Shown: positions 13,462 through 19,392 of the stretch, piece after piece | Numbering within the stretch: the first letter of the stretch is position 1 | Layout: each line of letters starts with the position of its first letter | Assembly: GCA_937893275.1 (NCBI GenBank) | Contig: CALBIN010000185.1 | Span: 1 to 36,053 of the forward strand | Direction: 5' to 3' | From: an uncultured Opitutia bacterium | Lineage (GTDB): Bacteria; Verrucomicrobiota; Verrucomicrobiia; Opitutales; Seribacteraceae | Length of the DNA: 36,053 bases | Program-made: the position numbers and the translations under genes | Notes under the pieces: model-generated | What the model was told of the DNA's origin: nothing | What the model saw: the letters and a program-made list of their open reading frames with translations, nothing else | Database searches by the model: none

Positions 13462-15552
13462 CTAATTGTTCAGCGGAGGTGGAGGTGGAGGAACTGAGAA
13501 CGGATCGAAATCAGCGGGTGGCGGTGGTGGCGCCGCTGGCGGTGGGGGTGGAGTCCCAAACGGATCGTTCTGTACGGGTGCCGTAGGAGCGGGAGGAACC
13601 GGCAAATCGAAAGGATTAGGTTCCTCGACCGGCGTTGCGGGGGGGGCTAGGTCGTTGGGTGGTGTGGGTTCGGGTGCCGCTGGTTCAGGTTGTGCAGGAG
13701 AGTTATTAAATATATCTTCCAGTGGAATACTTGGCTGTGGAGGAAGTGGTTCCGGAGGTGGCGGATTGGTGACTGGATCTTCTATCAGAATATCTGGTAC
13801 TAAATCAGGGTCTATGGCAAATGGTGGGATAGTTGCTGGTGTTTCGGGGGCAGGAAGTGGCGGTGCGGAGATCCCCTCGTTTGTCGGTGTCGGTGGCGTA
13901 TCAAATGGATCAACAGCACCTGAGTCCGAAGGTGGCGCAGGAGGAGGCAAGTCAGGAGAAAACGGATCGGGGGCACTCGGAACCGGAGGGGGGGTATCAA
14001 ATGGATTCACGGCTTCATCAGGTGGCGGAGGAGGTGCAACGGGTTTTGGGGTTTCGGAAAACGGATCTATGCCAGCTGGATTTGGTGGTGTTGGTGGGGG
14101 GGGCGGCGACAAAGTCGGTGGTGGTTCCGGAGCAAAGGGATCAATGGGTGTGGCGGGAGGCGGCAAGTCTGGCATTGTTTCGCTGTTGGGAGTGGCGAAC
14201 GGGTCAAACGTCGGAGGTGCAGGTGTCGAGGGTGGGCTGACGGCACTAGGGAAAGGGGGCGGTGGTGGTGGAGTGGGAAATGTTGGTGGTTCAATTGCAG
14301 GAGCCGGGGAGGTCGGTTCTTTCGTTTCGCCAGGCGCGGCAAAAGGATCAAAAGTGGGAGGATCGGGCGTCGCCGGAGGTGTCGTCGGTGCGGTTTCCGG
14401 TTCAAGTGGTGGTAGAATCGGAGTAGGTTTGGGACTTGGTACGGGTTCGGGTTCTGGTTCTGGTTCCGGTGTTGGACTCGGTGAAGGTTCGGTCGGTTCC
14501 GGAGGCGTGGGTACGGGAGGTGCAAAAGGGTCTGGCTTAAGGGAGGGAGGTGCAGGCGGGGTTGTCGAGGAGGGCAGTTCGGGTATCTCCGGAGAAGTTG
14601 GTGTTCCCGATGTGGATTCACTTGGCTCTTCTGTAACCGCAGGGGTGGGAGGCGCGATCGAGGGGGGCGTTGGAAGAACTTCCTTCGAACCCTCTATTCC
14701 ATTTAGCAAGTCTTGGACAGGTTCACCATTGTCGAATCTGATTTCCGAAGTTTTCTTGCCGCTCTCATTCCATTCGGAGCAAATGCCATGCTCTTTGTCA
14801 TCTTGCCAATTGTAGTCGAATGCTTGCTGTCCGTTTTCAAACCATCCTTTTGCATTCCCCTCTTTTTTGTTTTTAACGAAGCTTGCCACGAGGCGTTGTT
14901 TTCCATTCTCGTACCAAACTGTGCGAATGCCGTGCATCTCGTCGCGTTGGTAATAAATGCGGAACTTTGGTTGCCCCGTAGGATACCATTCGGAGGCGGG
15001 GCCCTCGCGAAGTCCATGCCGATAAATCGTGGAGGATTTCCGGCGACCATCCTCATACCACTCAAGTGCTTCACCGTGTGGCTTTTCATCGCGCAATTCG
15101 ACTGCGAAAGCTTTGTTTCCATTTGGAAACCATTCCGCCTTAACCCCGTTTAGCTTTCCGTTGCCATAGTTCTCTTCCCGCAACAACTCCCCTGTCATTC
15201 TGTATTCTCTGGAAGGACCGTCCCGTTCTCCGTCATAAAAGGAAATTTCGCGCCGTTTGCGACCATTGTAGTAGTATTCAGTCGTAAATCCATGTCGCTT
15301 TCCCGCATGCCAAGAGGAGATCGATTTTGTAGGGCTCTGCTCGAAAGTCTCGATTGCTCGTCCAGTAAAAAGAGGGGATTCCTCCGTGGCATTGCCTTCC
15401 CCGCCGACTAGGCGAATCTGCCCGTCGTTCCCTTGATCGAGCCAGTGGAGCATGACCGTGTGTTCGTCTGTCGTCAGTTGCGTCGAACTGACGCAACCAA
15501 AAACTAAGGATAGAAGGGAAATGCAAATGAAGAGATAGAATGGCGTTTTCAT
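13462..15552 (-). CDS. Lipoprotein with MORN_2 (YwqK-like) repeats and a 400-residue proline-rich tail with DPF/NPF motifs
   Basis: The 696-residue product starts with a lipoprotein signal (LVFGC, lipid-modified Cys20). Residues about 80-280 hold a run of roughly 23-residue repeats of the MORN_2 type (WYEDGRRKS, WYPTGQPKF, WYENGKQRL, WFENGQQAF, WNESGKKTS). From about residue 293 to the end the chain is dominated by Pro with Thr, Ala, Glu, and carries nine DPF and two NPF tripeptides, commonly followed by small or acidic residues and Pro. There is no recognisable enzyme domain. MORN_2 repeats are known from YwqK-like proteins and are assumed to mediate binding. It is divergent from the GYF_2-AIM24 gene. 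The tail may span the periplasm or bind a proline-recognition domain; both are inference. The antisense strand of the tail reads as Gly-rich open frames, which are compositional artefacts. Confidence 0.82.
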   Translation of the reverse strand: MKTPFYLFICISLLSLVFGCVSSTQLTTDEHTVMLHWLDQGNDGQIRLVGGEGNATEESPLFTGRAIETFEQSPTKSISSWHAGKRHGFTTEYYYNGRKRREISFYDGERDGPSREYRMTGELLREENYGNGKLNGVKAEWFPNGNKAFAVELRDEKPHGEALEWYEDGRRKSSTIYRHGLREGPASEWYPTGQPKFRIYYQRDEMHGIRTVWYENGKQRLVASFVKNKKEGNAKGWFENGQQAFDYNWQDDKEHGICSEWNESGKKTSEIRFDNGEPVQDLLNGIEGSKEVLPTPPSIAPPTPAVTEEPSESTSGTPTSPEIPELPSSTTPPAPPSLKPDPFAPPVPTPPEPTEPSPSPTPEPEPEPEPVPSPKPTPILPPLEPETAPTTPPATPDPPTFDPFAAPGETKEPTSPAPAIEPPTFPTPPPPPPFPSAVSPPSTPAPPTFDPFATPNSETMPDLPPPATPIDPFAPEPPPTLSPPPPPTPPNPAGIDPFSETPKPVAPPPPPDEAVNPFDTPPPVPSAPDPFSPDLPPPAPPSDSGAVDPFDTPPTPTNEGISAPPLPAPETPATIPPFAIDPDLVPDILIEDPVTNPPPPEPLPPQPSIPLEDIFNNSPAQPEPAAPEPTPPNDLAPPATPVEEPNPFDLPVPPAPTAPVQNDPFGTPPPPPAAPPPPPADFDPFSVPPPPPPLNN

Positions 15553-17913: not shown

Positions 17914-19392
17914 TTATTTCGATTCATTACTTTCCGATAGGGTCTTCTCAGTTGGATTGATTCCAATTACCTGTGCTTCAAATAGGAGTGTTCCATTGGC
18001 CTCGGTTCGGTTTAAGTCAACGTAAGTGGGAAGCTGAAGGCGCAACTGGAGTGTGGAACCGATCTTCAAATTGATGTTTTCTCCGTTGGTGGATGATGCT
18101 CTTCTCATCTCCGTTGTCGATTGTCGGGCATCGAGATTTTTCGGCAAGTTGCCTTTGTCTTTGCCTTCTTCTTTTCCGCCAAAACTGCCGAAATCTCGTG
18201 CCGCATCGATGAAATTGGAGAGCTGTTCTTGTTTGTTAACGGTTATCCATACCAAGGCTCCTGCGATGAGGACGACCACGGCTATTAACTTTTTGTTCAA
18301 GCCCATACCCGTATCGGGCTTATCAGGTCGCGGTCCGTCGATGTCTTTGTCCCATTCTTCCCATTCCTTTTTCTTTCGTCTTCGCTCAATAAAGGTGCCC
18401 GAGATAATGGAAAGCTCGTACAGTACGTAGAGAGGGATAGTGAGAATACTAAGGCTTACCGGATCTCCGCCAGGGGTAATCAGTGCTGCCGAAACCATGA
18501 GAATGACAAATACCATGCGCCGGTTGTTTCTCAGTTTCTCTACCGAAAGCACTCCTATCCAAGTAAGCAGCACGATGATAAGAGGAAATTCGAAGGCAAG
18601 CCCCACGGCGAAGGTCATCCATATTACAGTGCTGTAATAGTTGCCTGCCTCGGGCCTATAGGTGTCGAGTCCGAGCACGTCGAAGGTGAATTCAATGGTA
18701 AAGGCGAGAGAGAAGGGCAAAATGATGAAGTAAGTCATTGCAGCTCCGGCGAGGAATAGGAGAAAGGCCACAACGCAACCGGGCAAGAGCACGGATTTTT
18801 CTTTTACAGTCAGCCCCGGGATGACGAATCCTCCGATAAAGTAGAAAATAAAGGGCAAGGAAATTCCCAAGCCGCCCAAAAAACATATCTTCATTGCAAT
18901 GAAAATCGGAGAATAGGAGCGGATGACCTGCAGGAGGTGCCGATTTTGACCAGCTTTGAAATGCGAAAGAATGCGAGTTCTGTGGTGCGGGTCGTCTATG
19001 CCCCAGCCAATAAGGGTCTGCTCATCAGCGTTTCTTAAAGTGCCAAGATCGATGTCTTTGTTGTGGAGATGTTCGATATATTGCTCGAGACCAATGCCCT
19101 GAAGGTCGACGTCGATTTCCCCAAAATCGTCAACGGCGGTGACCAGTGGTTGCTGTAGAATCTGGACGGATTCGTCAATGAATACGGCAACCGCAAGGCA
19201 TCCTACGATAAAGGCAACGGCACACTTGAAAATGACCCATCGCAAATCTTCGAGATGTTCGAGGAAGTGCATCTTGTTGGGGTCCTGAGTCTTTTTTTCT
19301 TTTGGTTTGAGTGCCCCCAGCAAGCCGTCATCGCGGAAACGTTCCGCAAAGCTTTTCGGTTTTTGTTCTTCAACTGGTTCTTGGTCACTCAT
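17914..19392 (-). CDS. tatC: Sec-independent translocase TatC with a SAM-like insertion in periplasmic loop 1 and a C-terminal membrane-anchored extension
   Basis: TatC is the receptor for twin-arginine signal peptides. The core is clear: HFLEHLEDLRW (42-52, family HLxELR), membrane segment 1 (about 54-73), QQPL with the conserved loop Pro, SYSPIFIAMKI (159-169), VIPGLTVKEKS with the conserved Glu, FEFPLIIVLLTWIGV, LRNNRR and ITPGGDP. The protein is 492 residues against about 240-260 in E. coli. Residues about 97-147, in the first periplasmic loop, read like a sterile alpha motif domain: IGLEQYIEHLHNKDID, then L, then DEQTLIGWGIDDPHHRTRIL. After membrane segment 6 (about 313-333) come a charged linker, a seventh segment (368-385) and an unrecognised domain (about 386-492), which would lie outside the cytoplasm. 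No tatA or tatB is nearby. Its natural clients include the Tat-signal oxidoreductase at 5952. Confidence 0.93.
   Translation of the reverse strand: MSDQEPVEEQKPKSFAERFRDDGLLGALKPKEKKTQDPNKMHFLEHLEDLRWVIFKCAVAFIVGCLAVAVFIDESVQILQQPLVTAVDDFGEIDVDLQGIGLEQYIEHLHNKDIDLGTLRNADEQTLIGWGIDDPHHRTRILSHFKAGQNRHLLQVIRSYSPIFIAMKICFLGGLGISLPFIFYFIGGFVIPGLTVKEKSVLLPGCVVAFLLFLAGAAMTYFIILPFSLAFTIEFTFDVLGLDTYRPEAGNYYSTVIWMTFAVGLAFEFPLIIVLLTWIGVLSVEKLRNNRRMVFVILMVSAALITPGGDPVSLSILTIPLYVLYELSIISGTFIERRRKKKEWEEWDKDIDGPRPDKPDTGMGLNKKLIAVVVLIAGALVWITVNKQEQLSNFIDAARDFGSFGGKEEGKDKGNLPKNLDARQSTTEMRRASSTNGENINLKIGSTLQLRLQLPTYVDLNRTEANGTLLFEAQVIGINPTEKTLSESNESK

Follow-up and report, generated by a model that had tools for sequence, protein, structure and literature searches.

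We have identified, in the window (the whole stretch of 36,053 nucleotides analyzed here), a gene for a TatC protein that contains a sterile alpha motif (SAM) domain between TM1 and TM2, in the loop that homology with other TatCs places in the periplasm (P1). SAM domains are small interaction domains that are best known from animal proteins. The fold and the position of the insert are, in our judgment, virtually certain. The protein is a TatC, with a predicted role in twin-arginine transport, and the insert is found in essentially every genome of the window's family in which P1 has been sequenced. We tentatively favor a role for this domain in the packing of TatC against TatC.

Architecture of the TatC Protein

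The open reading frame and the residue numbers given in the initial annotation were found to be correct. The features of the gene, all on the minus strand, are listed below.

17914..19392 (-), tatC gene, an open reading frame of 492 amino acids, stop codon included
19117..19158 (-), N-side P1 cap element, residues 79-92, containing QQPL (family identity and alignment with the TatCs of E. coli and A. aeolicus)
18952..19116 (-), SAM domain insert, residues 93-147 (profile matches, AlphaFold2 (AF2) models, and Foldseek), with five helices in the AF2 model at residues 93-99, 103-111, 116-120, 124-129, and 135-146
18961..19104 (-), Pfam SAM_1 match, residues 97-144, corresponding to profile positions 12-59 of 64
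18913..18951 (-), C-side P1 cap element, residues 148-160, running into TM2 (identity among the family TatCs)
18358..18912 (-), TatC TM2-TM6 core, residues 161-345 (Pfam TatC, AF2 helices, and solved TatC structures)
18238..18306 (-), additional seventh TM helix, residues 363-385 (AF2 helix and hydrophobic sequence)
17917..18237 (-), C-terminal tail after TM7, residues 386-492, predicted to be periplasmic, fast evolving and without a Pfam match

Pfam family PF00902 matched residues 45-320 of the protein over positions 1-208 of 208 with 180.8 bits (cut-off, 25.1; E = 4e-53), and TIGR00945 gave 145.2 against a cut-off of 132.7. The tatC gene is single-copy in the window's genome (84.6% complete), where a second, ordinary TatC was not found. 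The six-TM TatC fold was recovered from Foldseek and from a full-length AF2 model of low overall confidence (mean pLDDT, 58.9); the seven Foldseek matches with E ≤ 0.001 were all TatC structures, with SAM domains next. The insert lies between TM1 (helix 43-89) and TM2 (helix 162-190) and is among the best parts of this model, with a pLDDT of 76-82 over residues 101-140, although the model is too poor overall to orient the SAM domain relative to the membrane.

Measured between the flanking prolines, from QQPL to S-P-I-F, P1 is 78 residues long, compared with 17 residues in the alignment with E. coli and 16-22 in most relatives from the order, which confirms the enlargement of the first periplasmic loop that had been proposed. 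P82 of the SAM-containing TatC (SAM-TatC) is the counterpart of P48 of the E. coli protein in the alignment. The net charge of P1 is negative and that of the cytoplasmic loop C2 is positive. With the topology taken from other TatCs, the SAM domain would lie on the periplasmic side, over the TatC trimer.

The tail of about 100 residues together with TM7 (window positions 17917-18306) is absent from the TatC of genus g3. Elsewhere in the window, an open reading frame of 696 amino acids on the minus strand (13462-15552) has, by eye, MORN-like repeats followed by a very long proline-rich tail.

Identification of the SAM Domain

A SAM-like insertion had been suggested for residues of about 97-147, and this was borne out by profile searches and by structure prediction. 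Using the whole protein, SAM_1 matched residues 97-144 with 29.5 bits, above the curated cut-off of 23. With the isolated loop, the SAM_1 score was 34.3 bits (E = 3e-8) and that of SAM_2 was 23.9 bits (cut-off, 20.5); NCBIfam gave no match to the loop. Both SAM_1 and SAM_2 matched 31 of the 31 aligned family loops with E ≤ 0.01 (best E, 1e-11), and a search of all PDB sequences with the loop profile retrieved SAM-domain proteins only (SHIP2, ANKS1A, SARM1, Caskin, tankyrase, and others). The loop was modeled by AF2 without templates as a five-helix bundle, for which the pLDDT was 87-93 across residues of about 90-139. All of the top 50 Foldseek matches to this model were SAM domains, with a probability of 1.00, a TM-score on the target of up to 0.91, and an rmsd that was mostly 0.7-1.6 Å.

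It is extremely improbable that the insert is something other than a SAM domain and that short helical motifs happen to have produced the match. The SAM_1 match does lack the first 11 profile positions, and a small domain can be expected to give modest E-values in Foldseek, as it did here (0.01-0.1). A false match is nevertheless ruled out by the homologue matches, by the exclusive retrieval of SAM-domain proteins from the PDB, and by the uniformity and close superposition of the best 50 fold matches. Residues of about 93-147 thus constitute a genuine SAM domain, far beyond chance.

Distribution and History of the SAM-TatC

Using the loop profile, the insert was detected between TM1 and TM2 in 34 of 36 genomes from the window's family, and the 237 other Opitutales genomes that were sampled gave no match, so that the conservation and placement expected of it among homologues were found. 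The two family genomes without a match are 84% and 60% complete, and in a separate draw SAM_1 was found in all 14 high-quality family genomes. P1 is exactly 78 residues long in every sequence from genera g1, g2, and g4 (32 TatC loci) and 83 residues long in the two members of g3; the recurrence of the same loop length in independent genomes rules out an assembly or reading frame artifact. The SAM domain of genus g3, which branches deepest, has diverged (SAM_2, 19.8 bits), the scanned member being below both Pfam cut-offs.

SAM_1 was found in 6 of 388 Verrucomicrobiota genomes, and only in the window's genome was it located in TatC. No SAM-TatC was detected outside the window's family, either in the rest of the order (237 genomes) or in the phylum sample, where the only other match to the loop profile is a different SAM protein (genome G379). 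A scan of genome contigs, which was seeded with two peptides of the window's family and may miss distant cases, returned no sequences from outside this family other than a single distant TatC that is unrelated. In a tree of TatC sequences from which P1 had been removed, the SAM-TatCs form one clade (support, 90/70; 88% of bootstrap trees) that adjoins a family with a long branch and with a P1 insert other than SAM. The named records with a SAM-TatC are metagenome-assembled genomes and single cells of uncultured Opitutales, Opitutia, or Verrucomicrobia, and many of them may be of marine origin, judging from the isolate names (TMED, NIOZ, AG-, and SI03x). A second, ordinary-looking short TatC with a very long branch was observed on another contig of genome G009 (L036, G009:C54), for which the contamination is 7%; it is possibly a contaminant.

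P1 Inserts in Other Families

Other Verrucomicrobiota families have P1 inserts that are unrelated in sequence, in loops of 50-139 residues, and those that were scanned gave no convincing Pfam match, with the exception of L040 (G053:C218:23400-26600, Opitutales family f18). The P1 of this TatC is 139 residues long and contains about three PQQ/BamB-like propeller blades (PQQ_2, 7e-20). An enlarged P1 of about 67-127 residues was also observed in L053-L059, L071, and L072 (f23), L049 and L060-L063 (f13), L064-L066 (f43), L067 (f37), and L038 (f16). The f23 inserts, from the class of the window's organism, are helical-looking, and the f13 set belongs to the Opitutales. In a TatC tree, nine labeled P1 states need eight changes, although the sequences were selected to display inserts and do not amount to a census. 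Because sequence-unrelated inserts occur in several families, domains seem to have been acquired by P1 of TatC on several occasions in the Verrucomicrobiota.

Conservation and Selection

The mean pairwise identity within the family was determined to be 81% for TM2-TM6, 77% for the N-side cap, 87% for the C-side cap (the most conserved region measured), 59% for the SAM domain, and 23% for the C-terminal tail. The dN/dS ratios, which were calculated for genus g1 only since synonymous sites are saturated in wider genera, are 0.052, 0.089, and 0.29 for TM2-TM6, the SAM domain, and the C-terminal tail, respectively. From these values, the SAM domain is under purifying selection and is kept less strictly than the membrane core.

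We consider it unlikely that the SAM domain is a passive, tolerated insert of little function that is kept folded so as not to harm TatC. Such tolerance would fit the natural range of P1 lengths, 14 to 248 amino acids (PMC3712464). It would also fit the several unrelated P1 inserts within the phylum, the faster evolution of the SAM domain relative to the TatC core (59% versus 81% mean identity), and the divergence of the scanned g3 domain. However, no loss was observed among the family genomes with P1 sequenced, the loop length is fixed in g1, g2, and g4, the dN/dS of the SAM domain is 0.089, and several residues on its surface are invariant.

Tat Partners and Other SAM Domains

No other significant SAM domain was found in 41 family genomes, which rules out a second SAM protein of the same genome as the partner, and thus any SAM-SAM contact would be homotypic. 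Of the 33 genomes with a TatA match, 32 have exactly one TatA-family gene, and the window's genome is among those that have the gene; the eight genomes without any match are mostly incomplete. A second, TatB-like member of the TatA family was as a rule not found in the family genomes, and in an older survey the Verrucomicrobia were also without an annotated TatB (PMC3827258). The Tat core of these organisms probably runs on one TatA-family protein in place of TatA plus TatB.

SAM domains were also observed in other settings. In another Verrucomicrobiota family, three adjoining open reading frames (L070, G066:C33:14500-19000) each have a strong SAM match near the start, then a stretch rich in proline and a TM segment, and one of the three has a VWA-like region by eye. 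Two adjoining SAM open reading frames at L068 (G177:C34) have, by eye, a C-terminal part of the formylglycine-generating-enzyme (sulfatase-modifying) type.

ML and EH Sides of the SAM Domain

Six residues of the SAM domain are invariant in the family (W130, P135, H137, R140, H144, and F145). The helix-5/EH side is the more conserved, with a mean entropy of 0.73 bits, and the ML side is variable (1.55 bits). The nearest solved domains by sequence, those of SHIP2 and ANKS1A, share with SAM-TatC a helix 5 that starts with D-P-x-H-R/K (DPAHK, DPQHR, and D-P-H/Q/Y-H-R, respectively), but they are from animal proteins unrelated to protein export. Polymer-forming SAM domains have G-H-R instead, and in SAM-TatC this Gly is replaced by His, Gln, or Tyr at position 136, the start of helix 5. 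Neither the helix-5 Gly nor the conservation of both the ML and EH faces that distinguishes the polymer-forming (ML-EH) subclass was found here. Position 136, equated by SAM consensus alignment rather than by superposition, corresponds to Gly241 of Tric1, which the Tric1 oligomer needs and whose change in G241E abolishes the oligomer (PMC11063897).

An open-ended, head-to-tail association of the SAM domains of neighboring Tat cores, which would cluster many cores, is highly unlikely. Many SAM domains polymerize in this manner, including that of plant mitochondrial Tric1 (PMC11063897), and with a single detectable SAM domain in the genome an ML-EH contact would be homotypic. Against this, the helix-5 Gly is absent, the ML face is unconserved, and a closed three-fold core would seem to leave little room for a helix with six domains per turn. 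Since the consensus alignment has the helix-5 Gly replaced, a canonical polymer of this kind is improbable, and the main rival to reinforced TatC-TatC packing is a partner without a SAM domain.

For such a partner, the SAM domain would be a periplasmic docking site that places a putative exported client, folding factor, lipid, or envelope protein at the exit of the Tat core, a reading that we regard as possible but doubtful. It is favored by strong conservation on the helix-5/EH side only, with its invariant residues, by the binding of other proteins by the SAM domains of SHIP2 and ANKS1A, and by the unrelated P1 inserts of other Verrucomicrobiota families, one of them propeller-like. The EH-side conservation may, however, partly reflect folding, and the combination of a variable ML face and a conserved EH face is compatible both with another partner and with self-association.

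Comparison with Known Systems

To our knowledge, SAM domains are seldom located outside the cytoplasm, and the STIM proteins are a citable example. The EF-SAM region of STIM1 and STIM2 places a SAM domain of a membrane protein in the ER lumen, but these are eukaryotic calcium sensors in which the SAM domain is paired with EF hands (PMC11506743). Tric1 and Tric2, which import tRNA into plant mitochondria, resemble SAM-TatC in that a SAM domain is carried by a membrane transport protein, and its oligomerization is needed for function; they differ in having a PRAT fold, a C-terminal SAM domain, and a location in the outer mitochondrial membrane, and in binding tRNA (PMC11063897).

No description of a TatC joined to a SAM domain was found in the searchable literature. 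The view of the initial annotation that no TatC of this kind had been described holds for the SAM domain, which is new as an insert, but not for large periplasmic inserts, since TatCs with folded inserts of this type are already known. The TatC of Myxococcus xanthus likewise has an additional folded domain within a periplasmic loop, which was crystallized as a homotrimer and augments TatC-TatC contacts (PDB 9E03 and 9E0S; PMC13323110). Unlike that of SAM-TatC, this insert is in P2, since it precedes TM4 in the alignment; it is larger, is not reported as a SAM domain, and works with TatB. The length of this P2 is 183 amino acids (PMC3712464). The TatC of Nitratifractor salsuginis (PDB 9E02; PMC13323110) has an insert of about 100 residues that precedes TM2 in the alignment and is thus in P1, as in SAM-TatC, but it is disordered in the complex, has, according to that study, no relation to the M. 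xanthus insert, and is not reported as a SAM domain (PMC13323110). In Pirellula staleyi TatC, a P1 of 248 amino acids is enlarged between two conserved caps, as in SAM-TatC, but the accessible text of PMC3712464 does not identify the insert as a known domain.

Proposed Role of the SAM Domain

In the mechanism that we propose, a SAM domain would have entered the permissive middle of P1 a single time, in an ancestor common to one Opitutales family, with both caps retained. The three SAM copies of each core would lie close together and contact one another, and these contacts would reinforce TatC-TatC packing in a core with one TatA-family protein. The mode of action would be that of the unrelated homotrimeric P2 insert of M. 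xanthus TatC, and the contact need not be a canonical open-ended head-to-tail polymer. We prefer reinforced packing because any SAM-SAM contact would be homotypic and because of the M. xanthus precedent, but the mechanism as a whole is tentative and, in our estimate, somewhat short of probable.

Single insertions and deletions in P1 of E. coli TatC are tolerated only at K51-T58, and natural long P1 loops, over the range of lengths given above, expand between the same elements (PMC3712464). The position of the SAM domain coincides with this permissive site in the alignment. Dominant-negative changes of TatC cluster in the periplasmic cap (PMC5102672), and in a cryo-EM study from 2026 TatBC heterodimers were found as a trimer that is packed at the periplasmic side (PMC13323110). 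Against the mechanism are the replacement of the helix-5 Gly of polymer-forming SAM domains by His, Gln, or Tyr, the heterotypic complexes with other SAM domains in which SHIP2 and ANKS1A were solved, the variability of the ML face, and the disorder of the N. salsuginis insert, which is in P1 by alignment (PMC13323110).

It is plausible, as the initial annotation had proposed, that a built-in oligomerization domain could alter Tat assembly or client docking. We think it quite unlikely that the further proposal holds in full, namely that the SAM domain organizes TatC cores from within the periplasm and takes over part of the role of TatB, with P1 as a recurrent landing site for domains in the Verrucomicrobiota. 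The SAM-TatC is a natural experiment, in which a compact and well-understood interaction domain has come to sit where TatC packs against TatC in a core with apparently one TatA-family partner, and it makes the role of periplasmic inserts in Tat assembly a testable question.
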